Shown here one piece after another: positions 4,379 to 20,281 of a stretch of DNA of 32,174 nucleotides. The position numbers were made by a program, and so were the translations under genes. The notes beneath the pieces were generated by a model. That model saw only the letters and a program-made list of their open reading frames with translations. It was not told where the DNA came from and made no database searches. Location of the stretch: the IMG/VR virus record IMGVR_UViG_3300020146_000005, positions 1 to 32,174 of that record. One strand, 5' to 3'. The first letter of the stretch is position 1, and each line of letters begins with the position of its first letter. Source of the DNA: a virus.

Positions 4379-4871
4379 GGTCGGACAGTTTTTGGGGCGG
4401 TTTGTTGAGGATGAGCGAAGTCTGGCGATTGCCAGGAAGAACCTCGTTGTTAAGGACCAGGCCGAGGATGCAGTGCAAAAAACCGCCCTGCTGGCGCTGG
4501 AATATCTACCCACCGACCATGAGAATCCTGGCGCTTGGCTGACCCTCACCCTTAAACGAACGTGCTGGGCGATGAACAGGCGCTCACATGTCTACTCTGA
4601 GATTACCTCCGATCACAGCGAGGGCGTGGCGGGCATTGCGGAGGAGGCTACGCTAGGCACCGAGCGAGAGATTGAGGGCAGGCGGGCCTTGGCCGAGATT
4701 GCTGAGGGGATGCGTCACCTGAAGCCAGCCGAGAAAGAGAGTCTCTCTGCGCTGGCGCTGGGGTACAGCTACAACGAGATAGCTGATCGCACCGGCTGGA
4801 CCTACACCAAAGTCAACCGCTGCATAACCGAGGGTCGAGCAGCGCTGCGCGAGTCTCTAACGTCCGTTTAG
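4371..4871 (+). CDS. RNA polymerase sigma factor, ECF-like (rightward)
   Basis: 166 residues, the usual size of an ECF sigma factor. Region 2 is seen at about residues 30-72 (AEDAVQKTALLALEYL..., then WLTLTLKRTCWAMNRRS), the part that binds core RNA polymerase and the -10 element. Region 4 is at about 108-162 (ALAEIAEGMRHLKPAEKES, then GYSYNEIADRTGWTYTKVNR), a helix-turn-helix for the -35 element. It overlaps the preceding gene by 8 nt and is followed by a rho-independent terminator. It would steer the host polymerase to phage promoters. Family assignment is by motif pattern; which promoters it reads is not known, though a candidate motif is described in this window. Confidence 0.85.
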   Translation: MIEVGQFLGRFVEDERSLAIARKNLVVKDQAEDAVQKTALLALEYLPTDHENPGAWLTLTLKRTCWAMNRRSHVYSEITSDHSEGVAGIAEEATLGTEREIEGRRALAEIAEGMRHLKPAEKESLSALALGYSYNEIADRTGWTYTKVNRCITEGRAALRESLTSV

Positions 4872-4999: not shown

Positions 5000-5545
5000 C
5001 TAGGCGGGCATTCTTTCCCGCAGTTGTTTCTCGCCCCGCCACGTTGCCTTCTGGGCGGAGGGAAGCGAAGTGCGGCAAGCTCGCGCAATCTGCGGGACTG
5101 TCATACCGAGCATTCGCCCGACCACCGCCCTTTGTCGGTGTGGTGTCATTGTGCCCAGGGCTTCAAGGGCCTCAGAAAACGTCTCACGCAGCTCTGCGAC
5201 TTTCTCGGCGCTTAGGGCAGTTTCGACCTCGCTGGAAACCTCTCGGCCGCGTTTTTCCCTTTGGCCCAAAGTATGAAGCCCTCCCTCATCGCGTAGCTCG
5301 CTGAGGGAGATAGTTGGCTTGGAGGACTTGCTGCGGATTCGGTCAATGCAAGCGTTCTTGACAGCGGAGAAGAAGAAGGCGGAGAGATTCGGAATCTCCC
5401 GATTCGTCTTCAGAATCCGCACGATTACATCCTGAACCACGTCCTCGGCGTCGTCTATCAACGTTGCGAAATTACGGCGGACGTAGGCATGGCCCTTGTT
5501 TTCCAGCCCGATCAATTCCGTAAGGCGCTGCTGGGAATGCTCCAT
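5000..5545 (-). CDS. RNA polymerase sigma factor, ECF-like (leftward)
   Basis: A second sigma factor, 181 residues from ATG 5545, chosen because AGAAAGG lies just upstream; the longer frame from 5647 would overlap a small ORF. Region 2 is at about residues 9-76 (LTELIGLENKGHAYV..., DDAEDVVQDVIVRILK, AFFFSAVKNACIDRIRSK). Region 4 is at about 113-175 (EKVAELRETFSEALEALG, LGMTVPQIARACRTSLPSAQ). It shares little visible sequence with the rightward sigma apart from the common fold, so the two may read different promoters or act at different times. It lies downstream of a leaderless-type promoter and small ORF, and ends at its own terminator. Family call is firm; regulatory role is inferred. Confidence 0.88.
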   Translation of the reverse strand: MEHSQQRLTELIGLENKGHAYVRRNFATLIDDAEDVVQDVIVRILKTNREIPNLSAFFFSAVKNACIDRIRSKSSKPTISLSELRDEGGLHTLGQREKRGREVSSEVETALSAEKVAELRETFSEALEALGTMTPHRQRAVVGRMLGMTVPQIARACRTSLPSAQKATWRGEKQLRERMPA

Positions 5546-5577
5546 TGGGGAAGCTACCTTTCTGTTTTGAGGACTCG

Positions 5578-5679
5578 CTACCTCTTGGCAGCGCCCTGTT
5601 GGTGCAAAAGCCAACCGATCAGAGCGCCTAGCGAAGCACAACCGCAAGCGGGGCAGAGAGTCCGAATGAGTGCCTTCAT
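5578..5679 (-). CDS. Leaderless small ORF upstream of the sigma gene, 33 aa
   Basis: Read leftward, ATG 5679 lies six bases after a TAGGTT -10 box, so the transcript would begin at or within a base or two of the ATG, as in actinobacterial leaderless mRNAs; no ribosome site is present. The 33 residues contain CPACGC (C-x2-C-x-C) followed by a short hydrophobic helix (SLGALIGWLL) and a basic end. It stops 32 nt before the sigma start. It could be a small membrane or zinc peptide, or a leader controlling sigma expression. No family is recognised. Confidence 0.5.
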   Translation of the reverse strand: MKALIRTLCPACGCASLGALIGWLLHQQGAAKR

Positions 5680-5685
5680 GGGACG

Positions 5686-5900: not shown

Positions 5901-5921
5901 CGCCGGTTTGGCCCGTACACT
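5901..5921 (+). promoter_or_regulatory. Weak form of the GTCCG-N10-TANNNT promoter
   Basis: CGCCG (5901-5905), ten bases, then TACACT (5916-5921), then six bases to ATG 5928. Only CCG of the GTCCG box is kept, but the spacing and the TANNCT box equal those of the stronger sites. It gives a leaderless start for the next gene. Confidence 0.4.
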
Positions 5922-5927
5922 AGCCGT

Positions 5928-6443: not shown

Positions 6444-6455
6444 ACCCGAGCATGA

Positions 6456-6489
6456 AAAAGCCCCCGCCCAGCACAAGGCCGGACGGGGG
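6456..6489 (-). terminator. Terminator of the leftward gene at 6507
   Basis: CCCCCG (6461-6466) pairs with CGGGGG (6484-6489), with further partial pairing between. Read leftward the stem is followed by CTTTTTC (GAAAAAG on plus, 6454-6460), a classical T tract. Confidence 0.7.
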
Positions 6490-6506
6490 TGCGAGGCGCG
6501 TCCGGA

Positions 6507-6839: not shown

Positions 6840-6869
6840 GACGCCTCCTATGTAAGGGCCAGACCTTCC

Positions 6870-6890
6870 GTCCGACCATTATTCTAAGTT
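6870..6890 (+). promoter_or_regulatory. GTCCG-N10-TAAGTT promoter-like site
   Basis: GTCCG (6870-6874) and TAAGTT (6885-6890) with exactly ten bases between, as at three other sites in the window. No start codon follows at leaderless distance; instead a non-coding stretch and two rightward hairpins follow. It overlaps the -10 of the leftward gene, so the two could compete. Confidence 0.45.
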
Positions 6891-6911
6891 TACCCGGTCC
6901 TTGCAGGACAA
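6881..6911 (-). promoter_or_regulatory. Leftward promoter of the 6507-6839 gene
   Basis: On the minus strand TTGTCC (6911-6906), 19 nt, TAGAAT (6886-6881), about 40 nt ahead of the start codon. The -10 is close to consensus; the -35 and spacing are weaker. Confidence 0.4.
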
Positions 6912-7112
6912 AACGCAAGAATCCGTGCAAGTCGACCGAGCACCCCGGCCGTAGGCGGCCCGTCTAGCCGTTGACCGCTCGCCATAGCAGCCCAACCGGG
7001 GACAGGGCAGTGCCGTAGCGGCAGGCTAGCGGCAACACCACCGGAAGCCGGATAGGGTGGACCCTTTCGCCCGCCCGATCCGTCTAGATACCGAGTGCCA
7101 TACCAAGAGCAA

Positions 7113-7140
7113 GGGGCCTTTCCTTCTCTCCGGAGGCCCC
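7113..7140 (+). terminator. Terminator-like hairpin
   Basis: GGGGCCT (7113-7119) pairs with AGGCCCC (7134-7140) around a 14-nt loop, followed by CCTTCGTT. The T tract is interrupted and direction is uncertain. Confidence 0.35.
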
Positions 7141-7200
7141 CCTTCGTTCATGACATCGAGAAGCACTAGGCCATATCCCGCCTCTCGCCTCGTCAGTCCA

Positions 7201-7234
7201 GCCCGTCCCTAACCTAGATAGGGGGCGGGCTTTT
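7201..7234 (+). terminator. Rho-independent terminator, rightward
   Basis: GCCCG and CCCTA (7201-7211) pair with TAGGG and CGGGC (7219-7230) with a small internal mismatch; TTTT follows at 7231-7234. The 11-mer GCTTTTCACGC occurs directly repeated at 7229-7239 and 7242-7252. It faces the leftward operon ending at 7284, so it shields that operon from rightward reading. Confidence 0.6.
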
Positions 7235-7283
7235 CACGCCTGCTTTTCACGCTTAACGTGTATTCTGGGACACGAACTCCACA

Positions 7284-7568
7284 TTAGAAAGGACAGTTGC
7301 CCCAATCTCGACGCGTCGTGGGCGGCCGCAGTTTGGCGGGAGCGGGCGTTTGGTCCCCGTTCATCGCCCAGAGCCAGGCCGCTTCAAGCTGACGGGAAGA
7401 GAAAGTGCGCTCGAGCGTGTGACGACGGATCGTCAGGCCGCCCCACTTAGTGCGCTTGGCCCTCGCCCCATTCTTGAAGAAGGCCCGACCATCCCGGTCC
7501 AGCACCTGCTGAAACCCTTTCAGCTTGGCAGGGGTTGCATTAACTTTAGACAGCGATCCTTTAGGCAC
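7284..7568 (-). CDS. Hypothetical basic protein, 94 aa
   Basis: GTG 7568 overlaps the stop of the upstream gene by 8 nt (GTGCCTAA), so I prefer it to ATG 7634, which lies deep inside that gene. The protein is basic: KLKGFQQVLDRDGRAFF, GARAKRTKWGGLTIRRH, then RTFSSRQLEAAWLWAM and a Pro/Arg end. The RTFSSRQLEAAWLWAM helix pair could be DNA-binding, but no family is recognised. It is the last gene of a leftward three-gene operon. Confidence 0.5.
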   Translation of the reverse strand: MPKGSLSKVNATPAKLKGFQQVLDRDGRAFFKNGARAKRTKWGGLTIRRHTLERTFSSRQLEAAWLWAMNGDQTPAPAKLRPPTTRRDWGNCPF

Positions 7569-7746
7569 AGAGCGTAGTCTGACAGGCTGGGAGGATCGCA
7601 GCCTCAGGGACCGCGGGGTCGGCCGACCCATCATCGAATAGCACCACGTACCGGCGAGAGAGCGGGCGACGCTTGACGATCACGCCTCGCCGCTCCCTGC
7701 CCGACCGATACCGGATCAGAACAGTCTCGTCCAGCTGGTAGCGCAC
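7561..7746 (-). CDS. Small Tudor/SH3-like beta-barrel protein, 61 aa
   Basis: GTG 7746 has a GGGGGG ribosome site. The 61 residues read as a small beta-barrel: QLDETVLIRYRSGRERRGVIV, RRYVVLFDDGSADPAVPEAAIL. The pattern V-x-F-D-D-G-S followed by a Pro-Glu turn resembles Tudor/KOW-like domains that bind nucleic acid or protein. The short C-terminal tail has two Cys. Middle gene of the leftward operon, overlapping the next by 8 nt. The fold call is by pattern only. Confidence 0.55.
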   Translation of the reverse strand: MRYQLDETVLIRYRSGRERRGVIVKRRPLSRRYVVLFDDGSADPAVPEAAILPACQTTLCA

Positions 7747-7846
7747 TGGCCCCCCTACAGGAACAGTTCAGCCAATGGCCAGCCGACCACCAGCAGTCCG
7801 CCCAGGACTACGGGCCAAGGTTCTTTTCGTAGCTGATTACGAAGCA

Positions 7847-8122
7847 TTAGCTCTTAGACGTATAGCACAGACGGAGCGGGACCACGGCGCGGCCCTTGAC
7901 GAGCTGAACGCGCCACGTGTCGGAGTAGTAGATCGCACGGTGCCAGGTCCAGGCATTCCGCCCATACATGAGCGTGAAGGCAAAGCCAGCGCCTCGCGGC
8001 CCCTCTAGATCGTCGTCTAGCCAGGCCAGGAACTGCTTGCGCAACAGGGCATCCACGTAGCCAAGACGGGCGACACCGGCGAAGCGGGACACCAGGTCCA
8101 GCCCGACCACACGAGACACCAT
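7847..8122 (-). CDS. Hypothetical protein, 91 aa, first gene of the leftward operon
   Basis: The frame is open much further upstream, but sequence before ATG 8122 is low-complexity and overlaps a G-rich control region, so this start is chosen; the GTG two codons earlier is possible. Residues read VGLDLVSRFAGVARLGYVD, then LRKQFLAWLDDDLEGPRG and a beta-rich Trp/Tyr end (NAWTWHRAIYYSDTWRVQL). No family recognised. Followed after 100 nt by the Tudor-like gene. Confidence 0.45.
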   Translation of the reverse strand: MVSRVVGLDLVSRFAGVARLGYVDALLRKQFLAWLDDDLEGPRGAGFAFTLMYGRNAWTWHRAIYYSDTWRVQLVKGRAVVPLRLCYTSKS

Positions 8123-8142
8123 CAACACCAGAGGGGCTAAGG

Positions 8143-8203
8143 CTTGGGGGTTTCGCCCCGGGGCTCGGGGCTTGGGGGTTGCGGGTTGGGTGGGGGGAGG
8201 GCG
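8143..8203 (+). promoter_or_regulatory. G-rich tract with G-quadruplex potential
   Basis: Seven or more runs of three or more G occur within about 60 nt on the plus strand (for example GGGGG at 8146-8150 and GGGGGG at 8192-8197), with GCTTGGGGGTT directly repeated. It lies in the divergent gap 8123-8458 between leftward and rightward units. On the leftward transcript it would be a C-rich leader. Confidence 0.5.
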
Positions 8204-8204
8204 G

Positions 8205-8315
8205 ATGAACCTTGCTATACACGCGTACGTTATAGCGTACACGATCCAACCCGACCAACCATCGGACCCCCGAGACTTGGCTCTATATGTAGGTCTGCGA
8301 GGTCGAGGCGTGTAA
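8205..8315 (+). CDS. Possible small ORF, 36 aa
   Basis: ATG 8205 follows a G-rich stretch that could act as a ribosome site. The peptide is neutral with HAYVIAYTIQ and ALYVGLRGRG. It lies in a control region and lacks the packed overlaps of other small genes here, so it may be chance. Confidence 0.22.
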   Translation: MNLAIHAYVIAYTIQPDQPSDPRDLALYVGLRGRGV

Positions 8316-8420
8316 ACCTTCGCTTGACACGTCACGCCTATTTGACCCCCCGTCACCCCCTCTGGCCGCGCATGGGAACCCACGCGCAGGATTCCTGCCA
8401 CCCCCTCACACGTATTTGCA

Positions 8421-8432
8421 ACGTATATACGT
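8421..8432. promoter_or_regulatory. Perfect 12-bp palindrome at a promoter
   Basis: ACGTATATACGT is self-complementary and its last two bases are the first two of the GTCCG box at 8431. A dimeric repressor or activator bound here would cover the promoter. A pair of GCGTAC direct repeats (8223-8228, 8235-8240) lies further upstream in the same gap. Confidence 0.45.
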
Positions 8433-8451
8433 CCGACTCCTTCCCTAGGCT
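8431..8451 (+). promoter_or_regulatory. GTCCG-N10-TAGGCT promoter of the rightward late unit
   Basis: GTCCG at 8431-8435, ten bases, TAGGCT at 8446-8451, then seven bases to ATG 8459. No ribosome site, so leaderless. It heads the long rightward run that includes terL. Confidence 0.55.
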
Positions 8452-8458
8452 GCTCCCA

Positions 8459-8776
8459 ATGACCTCGCTCGACACCCTCTGCCAGCGGCTCAGCATTGAG
8501 GCCGTCGAGCTCGAGAACACCGACATAGCGCTCTACGCCCACCTCGAGAGCGAGTGCCGCGGGTCGGTCTGTGCCCTCCACAACCGCTCCGACCACCACA
8601 TGCGAGACTGGCCCCAGCACTGGCGCGGGGACCGCGGTCTAATCGAGCGCATCTGCCCTCATGGCGTCGGCCACCCAGACCCCGACTCCCTTGCCCGCCT
8701 CAACGATCGCGGCCTCTCGGCCGAGGCCGTTGCTGCCGAGGGCGTCCATGGATGCGATGGGTGCTGCCATGGCTAA
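8459..8776 (+). CDS. Actinophage-type small Cys/His protein
   Basis: The start ATG 8459 is set by the promoter seven bases upstream; the frame is open further left without coding character. The 105 residues include a Cys/His pair region (ECRGSVCALHNRSDHH), then ICPHGVGHPDPDSLARLN, and end in a Cys-rich HGCDGCCHG. From memory, the CPHG(I/V)GHPDPD motif with a final HGCDGCC is common in hypothetical proteins of actinobacteriophages; the residues suit metal binding. No known function. Overlaps the next gene by 8 nt. Confidence 0.7.
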   Translation: MTSLDTLCQRLSIEAVELENTDIALYAHLESECRGSVCALHNRSDHHMRDWPQHWRGDRGLIERICPHGVGHPDPDSLARLNDRGLSAEAVAAEGVHGCDGCCHG

Positions 8777-9161
8777 GCCGAAGCTCGGGGAGATCTTCCC
8801 CCTGCGCCTCTCGAAGGGCCAGCGGGCCACCCTTGACGAGAATGCGGAGGCTGCGGGTCTGACCCGATCCGAATTTCTGCGTCGCGAGGCGGGTCTGCCG
8901 AACTGGGGTAAACGCGACCGCTCCGCGGTCGGTCAACAGCGGACGCCGGCGGGCCAGAGGCCCTCGGGCACCGCGCTATGTGGCCGAGTGGCGAAAGGCT
9001 CGGTGGGGGCGGGCCCTGGGGATGTCGGCGTTCCGGGGACTGATCTTGAACTGCGGATTGCCGAGCTCATGAAAACAATGCCGCGGGTCAACGCGGAGCG
9101 GCTGGCGCGTCGGGAGCTGGCGCGGGTTAAGGCCAAGGCGGCCCTGGGGGATTCGGAGTGA
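8769..9161 (+). CDS. Ribbon-helix-helix (RHH) type DNA-binding protein
   Basis: ATG 8769 overlaps the previous stop; ATG 8757 is an alternative and the longer frame from 8661 lies inside the upstream gene. Residues 8-45 read FPLRLSKGQRATLDENAEAA, GLTRSEFLRREAGLP, a strand-helix-turn-helix typical of RHH/CopG or MobC-like proteins (the strand pairs in the dimer and reads DNA). The remainder is Gly/Pro-rich and then helical with many Arg (ELMKTMPRVNAERLARREL). 130 residues. Near terL, it could be a regulator or a packaging-site binder; which is not clear. Confidence 0.6.
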   Translation: MAKPKLGEIFPLRLSKGQRATLDENAEAAGLTRSEFLRREAGLPNWGKRDRSAVGQQRTPAGQRPSGTALCGRVAKGSVGAGPGDVGVPGTDLELRIAELMKTMPRVNAERLARRELARVKAKAALGDSE

Positions 9162-9346
9162 ATTCACCGGCGGAGAATCGGGCGCGGGTCGCTGTGATGC
9201 GGGCCGAGGGAAAGAACATGCCGTTGGGAATGACGGGCGACGAGATCCGGCACGCCGAAAAGCTTGTCCTTACCTCGAGTAGCCGAGCGCGGGGCAAGAC
9301 TGAGTTCATTCGCGGCTGGCGCACGACCAGGAAGGGCTGCGTGTGA
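9158..9346 (+). CDS. Small hypothetical protein, 62 aa
   Basis: GTG 9158 overlaps the preceding stop as GTGA. Helical with basic residues (ENRARVAVMRAEGKN, DEIRHAEKLVL, ARGKTEFIRGW). No family recognised. Between an RHH protein and terL-linked genes. Confidence 0.5.
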   Translation: MNSPAENRARVAVMRAEGKNMPLGMTGDEIRHAEKLVLTSSSRARGKTEFIRGWRTTRKGCV

Positions 9347-9347
9347 A

Positions 9348-9581
9348 GTGAAGGGGGCCTTTCTGCCGACAGATCGCCAGGCGGACGGGATCAGGATATG
9401 CATTCGCGCCTGTGAGGACCTGACGGGGGCTGAGCTCACAGGTAAGGATGTGAACGAACTTACTGACCTGGCGCTTCCGATGGTTTGGGAGGGTTGGGGT
9501 TCGAAGTACATCGTCGCGCGGATGATGCTTCACCTGGGGTCCCCAGGCCTTTGGGGGCGAGTCCGTGAGGAAGTGCATTGA
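9348..9581 (+). CDS. Small hypothetical protein just before terL, 77 aa
   Basis: GTG 9348 follows the upstream stop by one base. The frame is open to 9264 but the earlier part overlaps the upstream gene. Residues: helical ADGIRICIRACEDLT, then ELTDLALPMVWEGWGSKYIV and a basic end. Its stop overlaps the terL start as TTGA. Small terminase subunits are often found here, but it is short and has no recognisable HTH; unknown. Confidence 0.5.
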   Translation: MKGAFLPTDRQADGIRICIRACEDLTGAELTGKDVNELTDLALPMVWEGWGSKYIVARMMLHLGSPGLWGRVREEVH

Positions 9582-11452
9582 GCGCAGTTCGGATTGATCC
9601 GTTCACGGGGATCGCTGGGGTTGAGTATCGCCTAACCCTCGACACTGAATTCTGGGCCTCGAAGGTAGGCAAGATCAAGACGAAGGAGACTGATCTTGCC
9701 TCCTTCAATTTCAAACCTGGGCAGCAGGCGCTCGAGGAAGAGCTAGTTCGGCAGCACCTCGCCGGGCTTCCGATGCGCGTCATTATCTTGAAGGCGCGTC
9801 AGCTCGGGTTTTCGACCTATGTCCAAGCCAGGCTGATCCGGGCCTGCACCAGGTTGCCGCGACGCGAAGCCGTCGTCATTGCGCACGACAAGGAGACGTC
9901 AAAGAAGCTTTACGCGATCGGGGAGCGTTTTTACCGAAACCTCCCGCCCGACATGCGGCCGACGCTTGGCGAATATCGCCGGCGCCAGCACCTTCACTTT
10001 GCTGGCGAGGGAGACTGGCGCAACGAGGAGACCTGGCCCGACTCTCGCTATACGGTCGATACGGCGAACGAGTTCCAGGCCGGCCGAGGTTCAACCTTCA
10101 CTGACGTCCACGGGTCTGAGGTGGCCTTCTGGGAGAGGATCAGCGACAAGCTCACGGCGATCAAGAATGGAGTCCCGAAGCTTCACGGGACTTTCGTTGC
10201 CCTTGAGTCGACGGCGAAGGGCTTTAACGAATTCAAGGACATTTGGGACGATGCCGAAGCGGGTCGCTCAAACTACATCGCGTTTTTCTGGCCCTGGTGG
10301 AAAGAGCCTGAATATCAGATGCTCTTTCTGAACGAGCGGGAGCGGGAATCTTTCGTGATCGGAGACCCGAATCACCCCTACGCAGAGGAAGAGCCGTGGA
10401 CCCTTCAGATCGCGAAGGAACAGGGCTTTGAGATTACGATTGAGCAGCTCCACTGGCGGCGGATCACGATTGCCGACGAGTGCAATGGGCGCCTCAACGA
10501 TTTTCACGCAGAGTATCCGACCACGCCGGAACAGGCCTTTGTCGCGACGGGGGAAAAGGCATTCGATTCACACCAGGTAGCGAAGATCATGTTGCGCGTA
10601 GAGAAGACCGACCCCAAGCACCCGACGGCGGAGAACCCTGGCCCCATCATCGGTGATTTTGTCGTAGCGGAGAAGGACGGTCAGGTTGATCGGAAGGGCA
10701 ACGAAATTGTTGTGCCGTCGAAATCGCTGTGGGTTCCGCGCGAGCCGGGCGTGGTTAGCCAGGAGGCTCCACACCGGTGCTTCCTGGCCCCGGAGGAAAT
10801 GGAGTCGCCCCCCGGGCAATACATCGTGAGTGTCGACGTTTCGGGCGGCGACATGGAGGAAACTGAAACGGATGAGCCCGACTATCACGCGATCGAGGTG
10901 ATCGATCATCGGACCGGTTTCCAGGTATGCGAGTACCGGTCGAAAATCGACCCGGATCTTTTGACCGATGAGGTTCTGTTGGCAGCGCTGTGGTTCAACT
11001 GGGCATGGATAGTTGTGGAGCGGACCGGCTCCTGGGGGATGCCGATTCTGCGGACACTTTGGCTCGATTATCGCTACCCCTACGTTTATCGCTCGAGACG
11101 CATGGGGGTCGCCTCTGAGAAGGTGGAGGCGAAGCTGGGCTGGGACACGAATCCGCGGACCAAGCCCGAACTCGTGGCGGGGATGCAGGCCCTGATCCGC
11201 CGCGGGGAAGACGGGATCCGGTCGCGACTCTTGGCGGATCAGGTGCGCACCTACGCCCGCGACAAACGAGGGCGCTACGGTGCCGAGCCTGGGAAGTACG
11301 ACGACAATCTGATGCCCTTCATGTTCGGCCAGCAGGTGCGTCGCGAGATTCCCCCACGGGAAGATGACGAAGACGTGGAGGAGATGGTCTCCGGAGAGGC
11401 GTTTGTCGCTGCCGGCAGCCGCCTCAGTGGCTACGACCCGCGAGTCAGTTAG
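9578..11452 (+). CDS. terL: Terminase large subunit
   Basis: The motor and nuclease that packages phage DNA into the procapsid. 624 residues from TTG 9578, set by the TTGA overlap. ATPase domain: Walker A-type KARQLGFST at 72-80, Walker B-type FTDVHGSEVAFW at 174-185, coupling motif ESTAKG near 210-215. RNase-H-like nuclease: SVDVSGG with Asp420, a middle acidic residue in VVERTG near 481, and KYDDN near 574-577 with two Asp. These are the hallmark residues in the right order. An acidic tail follows. Positioned upstream of the portal, with an HNH gene between. The start TTG is unusual but the coupling supports it. Confidence 0.95.
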   Translation: MSAVRIDPFTGIAGVEYRLTLDTEFWASKVGKIKTKETDLASFNFKPGQQALEEELVRQHLAGLPMRVIILKARQLGFSTYVQARLIRACTRLPRREAVVIAHDKETSKKLYAIGERFYRNLPPDMRPTLGEYRRRQHLHFAGEGDWRNEETWPDSRYTVDTANEFQAGRGSTFTDVHGSEVAFWERISDKLTAIKNGVPKLHGTFVALESTAKGFNEFKDIWDDAEAGRSNYIAFFWPWWKEPEYQMLFLNERERESFVIGDPNHPYAEEEPWTLQIAKEQGFEITIEQLHWRRITIADECNGRLNDFHAEYPTTPEQAFVATGEKAFDSHQVAKIMLRVEKTDPKHPTAENPGPIIGDFVVAEKDGQVDRKGNEIVVPSKSLWVPREPGVVSQEAPHRCFLAPEEMESPPGQYIVSVDVSGGDMEETETDEPDYHAIEVIDHRTGFQVCEYRSKIDPDLLTDEVLLAALWFNWAWIVVERTGSWGMPILRTLWLDYRYPYVYRSRRMGVASEKVEAKLGWDTNPRTKPELVAGMQALIRRGEDGIRSRLLADQVRTYARDKRGRYGAEPGKYDDNLMPFMFGQQVRREIPPREDDEDVEEMVSGEAFVAAGSRLSGYDPRVS

Positions 11453-11456
11453 GACC

Positions 11457-11477
11457 GTCCGGTACCCGGTCTAGGCT
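11457..11477 (+). promoter_or_regulatory. GTCCG-N10-TAGGCT promoter after terL
   Basis: GTCCG at 11457-11461, ten bases, TAGGCT at 11472-11477, then ten bases to ATG 11488. It fills the 35-nt gap between terL and the next gene, so the gap is mostly promoter. The UTR would be at most a few bases. Confidence 0.5.
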
Positions 11478-11487
11478 ACCTCAAGAC

Positions 11488-11739
11488 ATGCCCCTCTTGG
11501 TGCCAAGCCACATAGCCGAGACACTCGAGGAAAAGACTCGCCGCTTTAGGTGTGAGGTACCGGGTTGTGGGCGTGAATTTCCGCTGGAGCAGAACACGCA
11601 GTTCGTTCGTCACGTTCGGGCTTGTAGCAATCGCAACGCCGATCGGATAGACGCAGTGATTGCCAAGAGCCGAGAGAGCTATTTCACCAAACCAGCGGAC
11701 CAAGAGCTTTACGAACATTTTCGCAAGGGGGGCAATTGA
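11488..11739 (+). CDS. C2HC zinc-finger protein, 83 aa
   Basis: ATG 11488 without a ribosome site lies close behind a promoter. A zinc finger at 20-48: C22-x4-C27, then H42-x3-C46 (FRCEVPGCGREF, FVRHVRACS), a C2H2/C2HC spacing close to eukaryote-like zinc fingers found in some phages. A helical basic and acidic end follows. It probably binds DNA or RNA. The stop overlaps the next ATG as TGATG. Confidence 0.65.
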   Translation: MPLLVPSHIAETLEEKTRRFRCEVPGCGREFPLEQNTQFVRHVRACSNRNADRIDAVIAKSRESYFTKPADQELYEHFRKGGN

Positions 11740-12230
11740 TGGGCTGCGTTGGGGCCTGGGCCTTCATGCCGCTCACGAACGGTGACCACACCTTGCTCGA
11801 CTCGTCCGATTACGAGGATTTGCACCCCGGGCGCTGGTATCGAACAAAATTCGGTTATGCAGCATGGAAACGAAAGACCTTAATTGGGGTCCTGGACGAC
11901 TGGCTTCACAGGGTGATCATGCGCTTGATGCCCTGGGACAAGATGGAGGTCGATCATATCAATGGAGACCGCCTTGACAACCGCCGGTGCAATCTGCGTG
12001 TTGTGACTCGAGCACAAAACTGCCAGAACAAGCCTTCACTCGGAGGGTCGTCTAAATATAGGGGCGTTCATTGGTGTAAGCGAACCAAGAGATGGATGGC
12101 CCGGGCGAAGCTGAATCAGAAAACTTACTACCTAGGTTCCTATGAGGATGAGGAGGACGCCGCCGATGCTGCCTCTAAGTTCAGGGAAGAACATATGCCG
12201 TTTTCAGAGGAGGGGCGCCGTGCAGCGTGA
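11739..12230 (+). CDS. HNH homing endonuclease with AP2 DNA-binding domain
   Basis: The residues VDHINGDRLDNRRCNLRVVT (71-90) form the HNH-3 core (D72-H73, N81, N85). Residues about 105-150 (SSKYRGVHWCKRTKRWMARA, YYLGSYEDEEDAADAA) are a clear AP2-type three-strand DNA-binding domain. This HNH-AP2 build is the classic homing endonuclease of phages, which cuts intron-less alleles and copies itself. It lies between terL and the portal, a common site. 163 residues from ATG 11739; TTG 11736 would add one residue. It overlaps the next gene by 11 nt, so the insertion is well-fitted rather than a late scar. Confidence 0.9.
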   Translation: MGCVGAWAFMPLTNGDHTLLDSSDYEDLHPGRWYRTKFGYAAWKRKTLIGVLDDWLHRVIMRLMPWDKMEVDHINGDRLDNRRCNLRVVTRAQNCQNKPSLGGSSKYRGVHWCKRTKRWMARAKLNQKTYYLGSYEDEEDAADAASKFREEHMPFSEEGRRAA

Positions 12231-12612
12231 GTTTGGAGTTATCTATGCCGAGAACGAATCCCTGGGCAGCGTTCCGGGCGACGAGGCGGCGGTTGCAATT
12301 GCCCTGGGGTTGGCTCAACGCTGTGACGCTCAGACCCTCATCGCCCTGTCGGACTCGGTAGCCATGCTCGAGCGCGTCGGCGGCCAGTTCCACATCGTGG
12401 CCGTTCGGAGGGAGAATGAGGAGGGCTCTGGTGAATTTGAAACTTTTGGGCTGGCCTTTCGTCACGAGAGCCGAGATGCGCGGTTGAAGGTGGCGAAGCC
12501 GCCAGAGACTGCGCTCGGCATTCCGGTTTCCGATGCATCCGTGCCGACGGAGGATCTGCCGGAGGTTGACGTTGAGCCGGAGGGCGAGCCGGCCGCGGCG
12601 GAGGCCGCGTAG
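12220..12612 (+). CDS. Hypothetical protein between endonuclease and portal
   Basis: GTG 12220 has a strong GAGGAGGGG ribosome site inside the end of the endonuclease gene; the frame from 12142 has a basic, non-protein-like beginning. The 130 residues include VPGDEAAVAIALGLAQRCD, DSVAMLERVGGQFHIV, and an acidic/Ala tail. No family recognised. It ends in TAGTG, the portal start, so the two genes are coupled. Confidence 0.6.
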   Translation: MQREFGVIYAENESLGSVPGDEAAVAIALGLAQRCDAQTLIALSDSVAMLERVGGQFHIVAVRRENEEGSGEFETFGLAFRHESRDARLKVAKPPETALGIPVSDASVPTEDLPEVDVEPEGEPAAAEAA

Positions 12613-14582
12613 TGGAGGCCAGCCCCGTGCCCCTTCTGGGCGAGGTGAAACCCCTCGCCTCGATCGAGGACATGTCGGATGAGCAGAAGGCGGTTCTTGC
12701 CCTGGTCAAGAAGCGCTTTGACGCCTCCGACAAGCTGCACGCGCAGTTCCGCGATCGCTGGAACGTTTGGTATGGACTATCGCGGAACTATCGTCGGCTT
12801 CAGCGGCAACATGCTCAGGCGAACACCCCGAATGACAAGGACACGGTAATCCAGGAATTTCGCCGGGTCTTCGGGGAGGAGCTATTCATCCCCTATGTCT
12901 ACACGGTAATCGAGACGAATGTTCCGAAGGTTCTGGCGAACGATCCGAAGATCATGGCGCGTCCGAATGATGCCAGCGAAAAAGCTTACCTGGCATGCGA
13001 TCCGGTCAAACAGCTTTTTGAACGAGACAACAAGGCAATGGGCTATGTGACCACCAGTCAGGAAACGGCTAGGTCTGGACTGCGCTATGGCCTTGGTGTT
13101 CAGAAGGAATATTGGGAACTGAAAACCCGCAGTGGTAAGAAGATTGTTCCCAAGGAGAGTGAGGCCGGGTACAAGCTTGAAGATGACGGTGGGATTGTTG
13201 TTTACGAAGGGCCGCGGGCTGAGTCGGTTGACATCTTCGATTTCTTTTGGGATCCGCAGGCCTACAACCTGGATAGTGCCGACTACCTCATTCACCGCTC
13301 CTGGCGGAAGATGGACTATATCAAGAAGAAGGTGGAGGAGGGACATCGTCGTCGGGGACAGGGAGATCCTGGCGGGTGGGTTGATCTTGACCTGAGCGCG
13401 GTGGATGGTATGGGTTCTGATGCTGCTCGAGGTGAGGTTTGGTCCGACCGCATGCAGGCAGCGGGTATGACAAGTTTCGACACGGAGGGCAACACCCTTC
13501 ATGAGGTTTGGGAGTACCACGATCGCGATAACGTTTACACGATTCTGGACCGAACCCTTGTGGTTCAGATGGCTCCTAATCCATTTCTTCACGGTGATTA
13601 TCCCTTTCAGGTGTTCCGCCCGACCATTATGGAGCATGAGTTCGTTGGCACTGGCGAGGCCGAGCCAATTGCGCACCTTCAGTACGAGTTGAACACCATG
13701 CGCGGGCAGCGCCGAGATGCGGCCACGCTAGCGATGAACCGTGGCTACTTCTACTCGAAGGGGATGCTGAACCCCTCGAAAGTTATGACCGGCGCCGGTG
13801 TTTTTGTGCCGGTGATCGGGGACCCAAAGGACGCGATTCAACCGATGCCTTTCACCGACATTCCTCAGTCGGGAGTATCGGAGGAGGAAGCGCTGAAGCG
13901 AGACATCGAGATGACGACCGGTATTTCCGAAACCGTCTCGGGCGGATCCGGGGGCGGAGATGAGACGGCTACCGGGCGGCAGCTCGTGCAGGCCGCTGCG
14001 AACGTGCGGATTGAACAGAAGGCTAAGAACTTCTTCAGCGAAGTTTTCCGACGGGCAGTGCCGCAGCGCCGCGAGCTCTATCGGCAGCACATCGTGAAAC
14101 AGGAGCAGACTCGGACGATGCGGGTCAGCGATCCCTCTGCGACCCAGGAGATCGGTGGGAAGACGGTCCCTACCGGCTACAGCTTTGTTTCTTGTGGGCC
14201 GGACGAGATCAACGCGAATATTGAGGTAGAGCCGATCAGCGGTTCAACTGAAGCCGAAAACAAGGCCCAGAAACGCGCTGACGTGACGCAGCTGGTACAG
14301 GCTTTGACCCCCTTCATGGCGGAAATTGACCAGCCGAAAATGCTCGTGCACGTTTTGCAGGAGTTCGGGCTGGACCAGCCGGAAGAGATGATCAAAACTC
14401 CGGGTCCGACTGTCGAAGAGATCATCCCGGCGATCGGTCGTGCCTTGCTCGAGACGGGTATGCCGGAAGAGCAGATCGAATCCGTCCTCCAGAGCGCTTA
14501 TGATTTTCTCCAACAGCAACCCGAAGAACAGGCCGAAGGCGGGAGCGAGGCTCCAGCCGCGCCAGAAGGAGCCGGAGGATAG
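12612..14582 (+). CDS. Portal protein, P22-like
   Basis: Forms the dodecameric ring through which DNA enters and leaves the head. GTG 12612 overlaps the previous stop as TAGTG. The 656-residue protein has an N-terminal helical region with RDRWNVWYGLSRNYRRLQ, a central part, and the conserved LQYELNTMRGQRRDAATLAM region near 357-376, followed by VPVIGDPKDAIQPMPFTDIP and TTGISETVSGGSGGGDETATG. These are familiar from P22-like portal proteins of podoviruses, in a family of 600-700 residues. It is followed by the fibre genes rather than by the scaffold. The C terminus is Gln/Pro/Glu-rich. Confidence 0.88.
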   Translation: MEASPVPLLGEVKPLASIEDMSDEQKAVLALVKKRFDASDKLHAQFRDRWNVWYGLSRNYRRLQRQHAQANTPNDKDTVIQEFRRVFGEELFIPYVYTVIETNVPKVLANDPKIMARPNDASEKAYLACDPVKQLFERDNKAMGYVTTSQETARSGLRYGLGVQKEYWELKTRSGKKIVPKESEAGYKLEDDGGIVVYEGPRAESVDIFDFFWDPQAYNLDSADYLIHRSWRKMDYIKKKVEEGHRRRGQGDPGGWVDLDLSAVDGMGSDAARGEVWSDRMQAAGMTSFDTEGNTLHEVWEYHDRDNVYTILDRTLVVQMAPNPFLHGDYPFQVFRPTIMEHEFVGTGEAEPIAHLQYELNTMRGQRRDAATLAMNRGYFYSKGMLNPSKVMTGAGVFVPVIGDPKDAIQPMPFTDIPQSGVSEEEALKRDIEMTTGISETVSGGSGGGDETATGRQLVQAAANVRIEQKAKNFFSEVFRRAVPQRRELYRQHIVKQEQTRTMRVSDPSATQEIGGKTVPTGYSFVSCGPDEINANIEVEPISGSTEAENKAQKRADVTQLVQALTPFMAEIDQPKMLVHVLQEFGLDQPEEMIKTPGPTVEEIIPAIGRALLETGMPEEQIESVLQSAYDFLQQQPEEQAEGGSEAPAAPEGAGG

Positions 14583-15155
14583 ATGCCGACCAAGACCGTC
14601 AAACCCAAGCCAGGGCTCTTCCCCGAGGGGGCGGCAGTTCGGGCCTATCCCAAACGAACCACCGAAGTCCAGCGCCGAGAGAAAGGCGTGCCGGCTGTCA
14701 CGGCGGTAGACTCGGGGGTAATCGCGAACGGCGCTGTCGACATCACGGCGGACGCGGGGGAGTACGTCTTGTTCGGGGTTGTCAACGAGAAACAGAGCGT
14801 CAAAGTTGATGCCACTGGCGGAAAATTCAAACTGAAATACTCAGGCCAGACCACCGCCGATATCGCTTACAACGCTACGGCCGCAGTGTTGAGGGAAGCA
14901 CTCGAGGCCCTCTCGAATATCGCAGTGGGAGAGGTTGCGGTGACCGGGGGGCCAGGGAGCTCAGGAGGAACAACCCCTTATATTGTCACCTTTCTCGAGG
15001 CATTGTCGGGGACTGATGTCGCTGCGCTCGAATTCGTGGCGGGCTCTGAAGCGCTCAGTGGCGGCGGCGCTGCGGTGACAATCACCACGCTCACCGGTGG
15101 CTCGCCGGGAACCGCCGGTGAGACCGTTTCCTGTCTCTTCACGGTGGATGCATAG
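14583..15155 (+). CDS. Virion structural/decoration protein with fibre N-module
   Basis: ATG 14583 directly follows the portal stop with GGAGGAT before it. 190 residues: an N-terminal module (FPEGAAVRAYP ... GAVDITADAGEYVLFGVV) that resembles the N-modules of the three following genes, and a beta-rich repeat (GKFKLKYSGQTTADIAYNAT, then VAVTGGPGSSGG, TPYIVTFLEALSG) of a type seen in phage adhesins and in planctomycete proteins. Probably exposed on the particle. Function not fixed. Confidence 0.65.
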   Translation: MPTKTVKPKPGLFPEGAAVRAYPKRTTEVQRREKGVPAVTAVDSGVIANGAVDITADAGEYVLFGVVNEKQSVKVDATGGKFKLKYSGQTTADIAYNATAAVLREALEALSNIAVGEVAVTGGPGSSGGTTPYIVTFLEALSGTDVAALEFVAGSEALSGGGAAVTITTLTGGSPGTAGETVSCLFTVDA

Positions 15156-15156
15156 C

Positions 15157-15525
15157 ATGGGTCTCCGCCGGTTCAAGAATCTGGGGGAGCTGCTAGGGCT
15201 TGGGCTCAAGCCTCACGGAACGGATGGCGACCCGAACGGAACGGACAGCGAGTCTGCTGTCGACCCCGACTGGATGGGCGTCCCACGGTCGATCGTTCGA
15301 CTCGACCAGCACCCCTTCGCGCCGGGGACCGAGGTCGGAGTTCACCCGGCCCATACGGTAGGAGTTGAGCGCGGACTGGGGCGGGAGCCAATGGAGACAC
15401 CGGAGCAGGTGTTTACTGTTCCGGAGGACGGGGAGCTTGAGGTGTCGGGCCTCGAGCCGGGACGCTATTGCGCTGCTGGGCGGGTTGGGGATCGCTATCA
15501 CTACGTTCAGTTTTCGGTAGCATGA
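15157..15525 (+). CDS. Short fibre-module protein, 122 aa
   Basis: ATG 15157 (the longer frame overlaps the previous gene). After a 60-residue basic and acidic linker it carries HPFAPGTEVGVHPAHT, then GELEVSGLEPGRYCAAGRVG and a final strand YHYVQFSVA. This is the same module as in the two downstream genes and the protein is little more than that module, so it may be a capping or attachment unit. Overlaps the next start as ATGA. Confidence 0.6.
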   Translation: MGLRRFKNLGELLGLGLKPHGTDGDPNGTDSESAVDPDWMGVPRSIVRLDQHPFAPGTEVGVHPAHTVGVERGLGREPMETPEQVFTVPEDGELEVSGLEPGRYCAAGRVGDRYHYVQFSVA

Positions 15526-16319
15526 GCCTCCAAACCTCCGCTACTCTTACGTCGAATCGATTCCCAGAGGGAACTGAAGTTGGTTTGTACCCTGATTCGA
15601 ACTGGGGCATTCCGGGTCTGCGCTCTGGAGAACCGGTCGGGGATGCGATTGACACCCAGACGATGGAAGACGGCTCGGTTGAATTTGACGGGCTCGGCCC
15701 GAACAGTTTGTACTGGGCGGTGGCTCAGGTTGGCGGGGAGTGGGTTTACGTCTCGATTTTCATGGGCAAAATTCCCTCTGAAAACGCGACGATTATCTAC
15801 GGTGAAGGGGAGCCCCAAAACTCAGAAGGTGAGCCCGGGTGGCTCTACATAGACGTCGAAAACTGGGATATCTATGGCCCCAAGGACTCAGATCCTGAAG
15901 TGACCCAACAGTGGGGAGATACAATCCCGTTCGGACTGAAACCCACGGGTGAACTCGAAGTACACGAACAGGCCACTGAAGACGTGCACGGAATCGCGGA
16001 CACCTCAGCCTTGGCGCTGAAATCAGAACTGGGCGAAGGTGGAGGCGGGATCAGCGTTTATGGCAGGGTCGCTGGTGATGGCACAAAAACAGCCGGCAAA
16101 GGGTTCACGAGTGAAAAAATCGGAGTTGGGGAATATAGGGTAACCTACGAAGAGGAATTCGACGACGTCCCCGTGCTGTTCCCCGTCCCCAACTATGAAG
16201 AACCGGCCCTCGTGCCCCTCCTGGCCGAGGAGACAAAAGCTTCGGTTAGGGTGGTTACTGTCACGCTCGAAGGCAACATCGTGGACATGGGGTTTTCGTT
16301 TATGGCGCTGGAGCAGTAG
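15522..16319 (+). CDS. Tail fibre protein
   Basis: ATG 15522 in an ATGA overlap; 265 residues. Domains: N-module (about 14-80: FPEGTEVGLYPDSNWG, DGSVEFDGLGPNSLYW), a second module with ATIIYGEGEP and LYIDVENWDIYGPK, a hinge repeat (ATEDVHGIADTSALALK) common in phage fibres, a Gly-rich link, and a C-terminal beta domain (KGFTSEKIGVGEYRVTYEEE ... VVTVTLEGNIVDMGFSFMAL) of a kind found at fibre tips. It likely contacts the host receptor together with the next protein. Confidence 0.75.
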   Translation: MSLQTSATLTSNRFPEGTEVGLYPDSNWGIPGLRSGEPVGDAIDTQTMEDGSVEFDGLGPNSLYWAVAQVGGEWVYVSIFMGKIPSENATIIYGEGEPQNSEGEPGWLYIDVENWDIYGPKDSDPEVTQQWGDTIPFGLKPTGELEVHEQATEDVHGIADTSALALKSELGEGGGGISVYGRVAGDGTKTAGKGFTSEKIGVGEYRVTYEEEFDDVPVLFPVPNYEEPALVPLLAEETKASVRVVTVTLEGNIVDMGFSFMALEQ

Positions 16320-16322
16320 CAC

Positions 16323-17678
16323 ATGGCCGACATCGTAGTTACCAGCACGCTTTGGCCGGACGGGACAACGGTTGGGGCGTACGATGCGACAGGGTATTCC
16401 AACTTCCCCCGCAATGGCCCGCCCGGTACCGTTATTGACACGAGCGCCCAGACCAAAGGCTCGGTCAAACTCGAAGGCCTGACGAACAACAAACCCTACT
16501 TTGCGGCGGCGAAAGTGGGCAACGAGTGGCGGTCAGTCAAGTTCATTGCGAACGCGGAAGATCCCGCGGCCTGGCACACGGTTGGCCCGCCCGGGGCTGA
16601 CGGCGCCACGATTCGTTCTGGCGAGGGCACCCCTGATGCAAGCGTGGGTTTGAACGGTGATTTCTATGTTGACCTAGAAAATGGTCGCCTGTACGGTCCG
16701 AAGAACGGCTCTGCTTGGGGTGGAGACTTCATCCAGATTAACGAAGGACCCAAAGGCGAAAAAGGCGAAAAAGGCGAAAAAGGGGCCAAAGGGGACACGG
16801 GCGCTAAAGGTGACACCGGAGCTCAGGGCCCCCAAGGCCCCGCCGGGAAAGACGGAGAGGATGGGGCCATTGGGGCCACTGGCCCGGCGGGCCCGGAAGG
16901 CGGAAAAGGCGTCAAAGGAGACGCCGGCCCCGAGGGGCCAGAAGGCCCAGAGGGTCCTCAAGGGCCAGAAGGGCCGCAGGGAGCGACGATTCTAACGGGG
17001 GAAGGAGACCCAGACGATGAATTGGGAAGGAACGGGGATTTTTACCTCGACATAACGCTAGAAGCTGGGTATCAGCTTTGGGGACCCAAGGCGTCCGGCG
17101 AATGGCCTCCCGACCCGAAGTCTCTCGAGGGCCCCCAGGGGATCCAGGGCCCGAAAGGCGACACCGGAGCCCAAGGGCCAGAAGGGCCCCCAGGAGAACT
17201 CGTCGGGCCGGTGACTCAGGACGACATGGATACGGGGGCCGATGGGCTTGCATCGGAGGCGTTCTCGGCTTATCTCAATGCTGACGTAGAACTAGGAAAC
17301 GGAGTTGTTATCCCGTTCGATAATCAAGATTTCGATGTATCGAGCCGCCTAGATACTGAAACTAATAAAGGTAGGTTTACGCCCCAGGTACCTGGCTACT
17401 ATCGTTTTAGTGGCTCAGCTATGGGCACTTCGCCGATGGGAGAATTGCAGAATCTTGAACTGTTTCTTATGAAGAATGGGACACCTGTAAAGCATCTTGG
17501 TACGTGGGCCGGGGGATCGTTCTTCAATCCCGCGATAATAGGTTCTACGGCTATCGAGGCTAACGGGACTACTGACTATTTTGAGCTGGGCGTCTTCCAC
17601 AACTTGATAGGAAAAGTCGAGCTAAACTCGGGGTCTTCACAAACTCGGTTTGAGGGCGAGTTAATCGGTAAGTCATGA
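16323..17678 (+). CDS. Collagen-like tail fibre with C1q-like tip
   Basis: 451 residues. N-module (LWPDGTTVGAYDATGY..., 10-75), a module ATIRSGEGTP...FYVDLENGRLYGPK (95-127), a Gly-X-Y collagen block (142-220), a second copy of the module (221-256), a second Gly-X-Y block (270-292), and a C1q/TNF-like beta-sandwich (about 312-447, with FTPQVPGYYRFSGSA). Collagen stalks form trimers, and a C1q-like head is a typical receptor-binding tip. The tip is coded in AT-richer DNA (about 47% GC by hand count over 17281-17640), unlike the rest, which suggests exchange of the receptor-binding part. Confidence 0.88.
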   Translation: MADIVVTSTLWPDGTTVGAYDATGYSNFPRNGPPGTVIDTSAQTKGSVKLEGLTNNKPYFAAAKVGNEWRSVKFIANAEDPAAWHTVGPPGADGATIRSGEGTPDASVGLNGDFYVDLENGRLYGPKNGSAWGGDFIQINEGPKGEKGEKGEKGAKGDTGAKGDTGAQGPQGPAGKDGEDGAIGATGPAGPEGGKGVKGDAGPEGPEGPEGPQGPEGPQGATILTGEGDPDDELGRNGDFYLDITLEAGYQLWGPKASGEWPPDPKSLEGPQGIQGPKGDTGAQGPEGPPGELVGPVTQDDMDTGADGLASEAFSAYLNADVELGNGVVIPFDNQDFDVSSRLDTETNKGRFTPQVPGYYRFSGSAMGTSPMGELQNLELFLMKNGTPVKHLGTWAGGSFFNPAIIGSTAIEANGTTDYFELGVFHNLIGKVELNSGSSQTRFEGELIGKS

Positions 17679-17731
17679 AAGCACAGATACCCGCGGGGCC
17701 GGCTCAGACTAACTTGGTGATGCCCGCCTAG
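17675..17731 (+). CDS. Possible 18-residue ORF after the fibre gene
   Basis: ATG 17675 overlaps the fibre stop as ATGA and the stop is immediately followed by the next ATG. The peptide is too short to judge; its only support is the coupling. Confidence 0.2.
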   Translation: MKAQIPAGPAQTNLVMPA

Positions 17732-17899
17732 ATGAAACCAACCCGACGCACACAGCCATATCGCAAGCGGGACCTTCGCCCAGCCGGTCCGACCCTTGCC
17801 TCAATGCTCCGGGGTAGCACAGCGACCGGGCAGAACCCCCAGGATGCGCGGCGGAAGCTAAAGAAACAAGCTTATCGAACTTACCGTCGCGCTCGATAA
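17732..17899 (+). CDS. Small basic protein, 55 aa
   Basis: ATG 17732 directly follows the stop of an 18-codon ORF. About a quarter of the residues are Arg or Lys, with a C-terminal ARRKLKKQAYRTYRRAR. No obvious ribosome site. Basic small proteins in the head module may bind DNA or help capsid assembly, but this is only a guess. The stop codon lies in the right arm of a 14-bp hairpin. Confidence 0.4.
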   Translation: MKPTRRTQPYRKRDLRPAGPTLASMLRGSTATGQNPQDARRKLKKQAYRTYRRAR

Positions 17900-17906
17900 G
17901 CTTGTT
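17865..17906. repeat. Perfect 14-bp inverted repeat, hairpin
   Basis: 17865-17878 is the exact reverse complement of 17893-17906, with a 14-nt loop; each arm contains AAGCTTATCGA or its complement. It lies at the boundary between the fibre genes and the head genes, just upstream of the promoter at 17909. No T tract. It may be a terminator-like or RNA-processing hairpin, or a protein-binding site. Confidence 0.6.
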
Positions 17907-17908
17907 CT

Positions 17909-17929
17909 GTCCGGCGGGGGCCCTACTCT
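17909..17929 (+). promoter_or_regulatory. GTCCG-N10-TACTCT promoter of the head operon
   Basis: GTCCG (17909-17913), ten bases, TACTCT (17924-17929), eight bases to ATG 17938. The next gene has no ribosome site, in line with a leaderless start. Confidence 0.5.
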
Positions 17930-17937
17930 TCTGGCTA

Positions 17938-18258
17938 ATGGAGAATGCGGAACAAACCCTGGCGATGGAGGTTGACCTCAGCCACCTGACCAAGGACGAA
18001 CGCGTCGCGATGGGTGAGCGCGTATCGGAGATGGTCGAGAGTCAGGGGTTCCGTGATTTCTGTCAGGTGATCAAGCTTCATAGCGAGGGCATCCTCGCGC
18101 AGGTCAAGCTCACGAGGCCGAAGACAAACGCGTCGGAGTACGCGGATGTGATCGGGCATCTTCGTGGGCTTGATGAGCTTGGTCCGATCGCACGAGGCAT
18201 CGTGGAGGATGGCAAGCTAGCCGCGGCCGAGAAGGCCCGCGAAGAGGAGGGTCAGTAA
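17938..18258 (+). CDS. Hypothetical acidic helical protein, 106 aa
   Basis: ATG 17938, eight bases after the -10 box; upstream frame is low in coding character. Mostly helical and charged (HLTKDERVAMGERVSEMV, SEYADVIGHLRGLDELG). Just before the scaffold gene; perhaps an assembly factor. No family recognised. Confidence 0.6.
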   Translation: MENAEQTLAMEVDLSHLTKDERVAMGERVSEMVESQGFRDFCQVIKLHSEGILAQVKLTRPKTNASEYADVIGHLRGLDELGPIARGIVEDGKLAAAEKAREEEGQ

Positions 18259-19096: not shown

Positions 19097-20281
19097 ATGG
19101 CCGTGATAACAGGTCAGAGACAGACGGGAAATGTCAGCTCGGATCAGCGAGTAATTGACATTGCGAAGCCGATCCTGCTCTTGGAGCCGGATGCTGCACC
19201 GCTTACCGTCATCACCAAGTCCATCCAGAACGGTGGCAACGTCAACTCCTGCGAGGACTACAAATTCTCCTGGGTAGAGGACGAGAGGGAGGTGCGGTTC
19301 GATGCCGTGAACAACGGCGCGGGCTACACTTCGGAAGAAACCACGATCAAAGTCGACACGTCGGAGATTTTCTACGGGTCGGCCCTGGTCAGGGTGCCGC
19401 GCACTGGCGAGATCCTCTTCGTCAAAGAAGTCGAAGAAGGGAAAATCAAAGTCACTCGAGCCTTTGCCGGAACTTCGGCGGCGGCTCTGGTCGACAATGA
19501 CCCCCTCTTCGTCATCGGCGCGGTTGCGGAGGAGGGCTCTCGGTCCTTTGCCGCTCGCTCGAAAAACCCCACGAAGATCGATAACTACTGCGAGATCTTC
19601 AAGACGTCGATTGAGGCGTCCGGCTCCTGGCTAAGTTCTGGGAACCAGACGACTCCGCACGACTGGGTTCACCAGCACAAGAAGAAGAACATCGAGCACC
19701 TGCTTGACGTCGAGCACGCTGGGCTGTTCGGTTCTCCTTCGACCCAAACCGGTTCAGGGGGCGGGCGCCTGTCCACTACGGGCGGCGCTCTTTACTTCCT
19801 GAAAGAGAACAATCAGGACGCCGGTGGTACTCTCACTGAGGCTGAGTGGGAGTCCTGGGTGCGGTCGATTTGTCGCTACGGCAACAAGAAGACCGTATTC
19901 GCCTCGCCATTGGTTCTGTCGGTGATCAATAACTTCGCCGTGGGTCGCCTTCAGGTGGTCCAGGCGGATAAAGATCGCACGTACGGCGTCTCCATCATGG
20001 AGTACGTCAGTGCGCACGGGACGATCAAGCTCGTCAAGCACAACCTGCTTGAGGGCGCGGTCTGGGGTGGCTATGCCATCGCCGTCGACATGCAGAAGGC
20101 GGCTCCCGAATACCGGTACTTGGGTGGGAACAACGCCCCGAAGGGTGGACGCGACACGAAGCTCCTTGCCAACAGGCAGGAGAACGATCGCGATGGCCAG
20201 AAGGACGAGATCCTGACCGAGTGCGGGTTTGCATTCAAGCAGACCAAGACCGGAGGTGTCCTCACCGGCGTCACCGGCTAG
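19097..20281 (+). CDS. Major capsid protein, SU10-type (DUF5309-like)
   Basis: The HK97-fold coat. An AAGGAG ribosome site precedes ATG 19097. Of 394 residues, the N terminus (TGNVSSDQRVIDIAKPILLL, FSWVEDEREVRFDAVN) and the middle RTGEILFVKEVEEGK, VTRAFAGTSAAALVDND, GAVAEEGSRS match what I recall of the SU10 major head protein family (DUF5309), whose beta insertion has the same G-E-I-L and R-x-x-x-G-T residues. Downstream there is a strong hairpin (20287-20316). The family is found in phiEco32-like podoviruses and actinophages; this fits the short-tailed set here. Confidence 0.85.
   Translation: MAVITGQRQTGNVSSDQRVIDIAKPILLLEPDAAPLTVITKSIQNGGNVNSCEDYKFSWVEDEREVRFDAVNNGAGYTSEETTIKVDTSEIFYGSALVRVPRTGEILFVKEVEEGKIKVTRAFAGTSAAALVDNDPLFVIGAVAEEGSRSFAARSKNPTKIDNYCEIFKTSIEASGSWLSSGNQTTPHDWVHQHKKKNIEHLLDVEHAGLFGSPSTQTGSGGGRLSTTGGALYFLKENNQDAGGTLTEAEWESWVRSICRYGNKKTVFASPLVLSVINNFAVGRLQVVQADKDRTYGVSIMEYVSAHGTIKLVKHNLLEGAVWGGYAIAVDMQKAAPEYRYLGGNNAPKGGRDTKLLANRQENDRDGQKDEILTECGFAFKQTKTGGVLTGVTG

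Follow-up and report, generated by a model that had tools for sequence, protein, structure and literature searches.

How late genes are switched on, and by whose regulator, is the question raised by the soil-phage DNA of IMG/VR record IMGVR_UViG_3300020146_000005, of which the whole stretch from position 1 to 32,174 (32,174 nucleotides, hereafter the window) was analysed. The motif GTCCG-N10-TANNNT recurs here ahead of genes for DNA packaging and head formation. Comparison with related phages and with chromosomes of Actinomycetota indicates that these copies are probably leaderless late promoters of the PafBC-dependent type, GTCCG representing the -26 element, which would be read by the PafBC complex of the host upon its activation by single-stranded DNA (ssDNA). 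The following sites are concerned:

8431..8451, + strand: putative late promoter, GTCCG (-26 element)-N10-TAGGCT (-10), 7 nt to the leaderless ATG at 8459
11457..11477, + strand: putative late promoter downstream of terL and ahead of the zinc-finger gene, GTCCG-N10-TAGGCT, 10 nt to the ATG at 11488
17909..17929, + strand: putative late promoter preceding the scaffold/major-capsid operon, GTCCG-N10-TACTCT, 8 nt to the ATG at 17938
5901..5921, + strand: putative degenerate promoter, CGCCG-N10-TACACT, 6 nt to the ATG at 5928 of a small-terminase-like gene
6870..6890, + strand: fourth motif copy, -10 box TAAGTT, without a start codon or gene behind it

The four exact copies and their -10 boxes, as well as the weaker copy at 5901, had been pointed out in an initial annotation of the sequence and were all recovered at the same positions. 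The exact copies are the only matches on either strand, and the reversed pattern gave none. The annotation had estimated less than one match by chance, in agreement with a mean of 0.54 in 100 dinucleotide shuffles of the window, in which four matches were never reached; the distance of 7–10 nt from three of the copies to an ATG proved correct as well.

Relatives of the phage were sought among soil phage records by means of TerL, over which they are ~40–56% identical (records and genomes are designated here by G numbers). GTCCG-Nk-NANNCT-N6-8-RTG was counted across 19 records totalling 448 kb: there are 14 sites at k=10, three at k=11 and 0–1 at each other spacing. When the window was left out, near-duplicates were merged and 22 other spacings served as control, the remaining 17 records contained 11 sites at k=10 with a start codon 6–8 nt on, versus a mean of 0.36 per other spacing (Poisson P ~3e-13). 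The same preference was observed with TANNNT in a second, more distant set of 63 additional loci retrieved by a TerL alignment (7 sites at k=10 versus 0.23 per other spacing, P ~5e-9). In an unprejudiced ranking of all 1024 pentamers located 10 nt upstream of NANNNT plus start codon, GTCCG came first (18 versus 6 for the next). As -10 box the window has TANNNT; GACACT is frequent in G008, G009 and G010, and some relatives retain the -10 alone. An inverted repeat or hairpin was dismissed as a general feature, the GTC...GAC symmetry of the G008 and G009 sites being absent from the window. A search of viral contigs with the major capsid protein (MCP) yielded no usable match.

Motif sites recur upstream of orthologous late genes and not within operons. 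The genes of the window used as reference points are:

9578..11452, + strand: terminase large subunit (terL; PHROG terminase matches, relatives ~40–56% identical)
11488..11739, + strand: small zinc-finger-like protein, conserved after terL (tblastn, in 12 relatives)
17938..18258, + strand: first gene of the capsid operon (tblastn, relatives)
19097..20281, + strand: major head protein (PHROG 1328)

Placement was scored with a weight matrix from which the own sites of the scored record were excluded, the 99% level of random places being 5.85 bits. Strong sites lie upstream of the small-terminase-like gene in G009, G015, G007 and G014, upstream of the RHH gene in G008, G014, G002 and G009, at the zinc-finger gene after terL in the window, G008, G009 and G010, and at the first gene of the capsid operon in the window and G014. 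Sites upstream of terL are strong in G008, G009 and G010 and weaker in G001, G003, G005 and G006. The portal and MCP genes as well as g12142, g14583, g18259, g20443 and g21003 had no site above the random level in this scoring. In G006, a GH25 endolysin is encoded downstream of a GTCCG-N10-GACACT site. An integrase is encoded by G008, and therefore at least one family member is probably temperate.

The individual sites of the window can be followed into the relatives. The 8431 site is succeeded by a 105 amino acid (aa) open reading frame (ORF) starting at ATG 8459, the RHH gene and terL, and its orthologues upstream of the RHH gene read GTCCG in G008, GTCCC in G014 and CTCCG in G009. In G008, G009 and G010, terL is followed by counterparts of the 11457 site at equal position and spacing, with GACACT or AACACT as -10 and a GTG 7 nt on. 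The counterpart of the 17909 site in G014 is GTCCG-N11-TAGACT-ATG, and distant relatives carry the exact motif upstream of genes of 111–118 aa. Even the weak 5901 site is supported as the orthologue of good sites, namely GTCCG/ATCCG-N10/11-GACACT/GAGAAT/GACAAT-N6/7-start in G009, G015, G014 and G007. For the copy at 6870 no orthologous site was found in the relatives; it may be a chance match, or may drive a non-coding RNA that would end close to the GC hairpin at 7202–7236. The region 6890–7240 contains no clear gene and ends in this GC-rich hairpin followed by T residues; the predicted fold of 6897–7240 is not significant (z -1.4).

The survey of relatives proposed in the initial annotation thus supports the motif by spacing, pentamer ranking and orthologous placement, and these comparisons make a strong case for a conserved element of leaderless late-gene promoters. 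The annotated recurrence before late units holds for the small-terminase-like, RHH/terL, zinc-finger/portal and capsid operons with their leaderless or nearly leaderless starts; its supposed phage specificity does not, since the element is also found in chromosomes of Actinomycetota before DNA-repair genes.

The geometry of the motif led to a comparison with the promoters controlled by PafBC in mycobacteria, which have the consensus tTGTCRgtg-8nt-TannnT (PMC5656591), i.e., GTCRG-N10-TANNNT. The helix-turn-helix (HTH) domain of PafB reads this -26 motif, the HTH of PafC interacts with domain 4 of sigma-A, and the complex is activated by ssDNA (PMC11804915). A GTCnG core, 10 nt to a TANNNT -10 box and no need for a -35 are shared with the PafBC-dependent promoter RecA-NDp of Mycobacterium, and the 10-nt gap is found exactly at the four window sites. 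The flanking t/tg of the mycobacterial motif is not conserved in the phage sites, where the base preceding the core is C or T in 17 of 20 and no preference for tg follows it. Judged from these features, the phage element is a variant of the mycobacterial PafBC motif and not identical with it.

The element was then sought in 296 evenly drawn genomes of Actinomycetota, many of which carry it above a reversed control. Since actinobacteria often have TANNNT ahead of a start codon in any case, 24 genomes rich in matches were examined with the other spacings as control. Sites at k=10 versus the mean per other spacing numbered 27 v 2.8 in G282, 17 v 2.1 in G080, 13 v 1.8 in G317, 12 v 0.9 in G103 and 10 v 0.6 in G114. 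The genes behind the k=10 sites of G282 encode RecF, UvrA, UvrB, RecG, RarA/MgsA, AlkZ, a UvrD-type helicase and two Exo_endo_phos (ExoIII-like) proteins, and further a probable SbcD, FtsK, a ResIII helicase and an RNase_H_2 nuclease (for RecF, SbcD and ExoIII, the assignment is based on the Pfam domain together with inspection of the N-terminal sequence). Repair genes accounted for 9/23 of these sites by strict and 13/23 by lenient count, versus 0/17 at wrong-spacing controls (Fisher P 0.005 and 1e-4, respectively). In G317 and G114, the element lies upstream of genes for UDG, UvrD-type helicases and RuvA. In G103 and G317, two related proteins of 324–330 aa (L153, L220), for which Pfam gave no match and which may be nucleases of the NurA type, are also encoded behind the motif.

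PafB and PafC are encoded separately in G282, beside tatC (phmmer to PDB 6sj9, 7p5x and 9fnd), while G103, G114, G317, G080 and G136 possess two WYL domains separated by ~1.1 kb, and several of these genomes have both within one long ORF, which probably represents a PafBC fusion; in G114, these paired domains are the only WYL matches. Apparent pafB-/pafC-like fusion ORFs were noted in G103, G114 and G317 (L240, L237 and L241). GTCCG-N10-TANNNT marks DNA-repair genes in hosts encoding PafBC. Columns in common between the phage sites and the host recF and recG sites are visible in the alignment. G282 accepts both C and G as the fourth base (C in 27 sites, G in ~23, A in 3 and T in 5), whereas C is favoured in G103, G317 and G114 (12, 13 and 10 versus 5, 4 and 4 for A, G and T combined).

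That the phage lives in such a host is indirectly suggested by the 631 aa tail protein of the window (29325–31220): in a search of 50,697 records, its residues 239–429 matched tape measure proteins from phages of Streptomyces and Gordonia and nothing else. Under the PafBC-dependent mechanism, PafB of the host would read GTCCG at the late promoters, PafC would hold region 4 of sigma-A, representing a sigma adaptation of the host polymerase, and ssDNA arising from phage replication or DNA damage would activate PafBC and turn on the late genes, the phage contributing promoters only and no activator of its own. On a broader scale, we lean towards the view that an actinobacterial phage family has placed its late operons under host PafBC, with ssDNA from replication (or damage in lysogens) directly triggering virion and lysis genes, and that the GTCCG variant reveals unrecognised PafBC regulons in non-mycobacterial Actinomycetota.

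One-mismatch matches are not enriched in the window (14 versus 16.5 expected), so that the window alone is weak evidence and cannot settle the reality of the motif. Several observations weigh against the PafBC interpretation. Many family members, e.g., G015 and G016, have few sites. The fourth core base is C in the phage (8/12 of the GTCnG sites with TANNNT) versus A or G in the mycobacterial consensus. The genomes chosen for closer study were those with many motif matches, and the weaker ones may reflect regression to the mean, for which the strongest ones in the spacing test are too extreme. No TerL relative turned up in 396 Actinomycetota genomes, and a TerL search of genome contigs returned mainly distant matches, with the best chromosomal relative in a metagenome-assembled genome (MAG) of Chthonomonadales; this MAG shows no motif enrichment and has fewer matches than the reversed control.

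Among the other explanations, a phage-encoded activator fares best, albeit as an unlikely one: a MotA-like protein, and not PafBC, would bind GTCCG at -26 and recruit the host sigma-A polymerase, and the likeness to PafBC would be convergent. The position just 5' of the -10 suits an activator, C is stricter in the phage sites than in the published PafBC motif, and the conserved zinc-finger and RHH genes lie under the promoters. Such an activator would not, however, explain GTCCG-N10-TANNNT, C included, at host DNA-repair genes, and no candidate common to all motif-bearing relatives was identified. A phage-encoded WYL activator was also discarded, WYL proteins being absent from the phages except for a sub-threshold fragment in G004 and G006. 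This weak partial match resides in a 193 aa open frame near the endolysin promoter site (~3499 in G004, ~28426 in G006).

Rather improbable is an ordinary leaderless sigma-A promoter relying on its -10 only, at which GTCCG would need no activator and act directly, through spacer contact or as an extended -10. The usual leaderless promoter of actinobacteria is indeed TANNNT with a start codon behind it, and retention of just the -10 in some relatives agrees with it, but GTCCG lies 10 nt from the box, beyond extended -10 contacts, and in the host it marks DNA-repair genes, not leaderless genes at large (0/17 at controls). The initial suggestion of an extended -10 or activator element is retained in its second half: GTCCG behaves as an activator element and not as a -35.

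That one of the two phage sigma factors reads the motif, as suggested in the initial annotation, with GTCCG as a -35, is very unlikely. Both proteins are of the sigma-70 region 2/4 type and their genes are convergent:

4371..4871, + strand: phage sigma-factor-like protein (PHROG 1740), rejected as motif reader
5000..5647, - strand: second phage sigma-factor-like protein (Pfam Sigma70_r2), rejected as motif reader

The 18 relatives contain no homologue (Pfam sigma-70 region 2; tblastn), and this includes G008 and G009, which have the best sites. The two elements are separated by a fixed 10 nt, too short for a -35/-10 pair with its 16–19 nt, and the element is that of a host chromosomal promoter. 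A consensus scan detected no + strand sigma-70 pair in 5600–18300. An extracytoplasmic function (ECF) sigma promoter was discarded on spacing, and a sigma-54-like -24/-12 promoter shares the spacing of 10 and differs in its letters and in the TANNNT box. Chance as the source of the window matches, to which the lacking enrichment of one-mismatch matches and the missing gene behind 6870 might point, is negligible, as two separate sets of relatives show enrichment specific to one spacing and the sites are placed at orthologous genes; it is ruled out for the whole set.

Two further genes of the window were noted. A protein with HNH_3 and AP2 domains, in all probability a homing endonuclease, is encoded at 11736–12230, after the zinc-finger gene and before the next conserved one. 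The 1258 aa ORF at 25549–29325, in the late region, has no match in Pfam or PHROG.

If the PafBC-dependent reading is true, this would be, as far as the literature search shows, the first late-gene programme of a phage wired to PafBC, an SOS-independent damage activator, and would tie late expression to replication in a simple manner, with no need for an activator or sigma factor of the phage. No paper linking PafBC to phage late promoters was found, coverage being thin for subscription papers so that absence is not proven. The promoter code GTC[C/G]G-N10-TANNNT-N7-start could be applied to PafBC regulons outside mycobacteria. In Streptomyces venezuelae, PafBC is conserved and the mycobacterial PafBC motif was reported not to be (PMC9380542), which an altered fourth base could explain. 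When met in an environmental phage, GTCCG-N10-TANNNT could serve as a clue to an actinobacterial host.

Three known systems invite comparison. The middle promoters of phage T4 depend on phage-encoded MotA and AsiA, i.e., on sigma appropriation. There, as in the promoters proposed here, the -35 gives way to an element near -30 that works with the host -10 and the host sigma; in contrast to MotA and AsiA, the activator of the present phage appears to be that of the host. Prophage induction coupled to LexA and the SOS response likewise subjects phage genes to a DNA damage signal of the host, but there the genes are derepressed, whereas here a WYL activator would switch late promoters on without involvement of RecA and LexA. 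The mycobacterial PafBC promoters, finally, share the GTCnG core and the spacing with the phage sites and precede repair genes, whereas the latter precede phage late genes.

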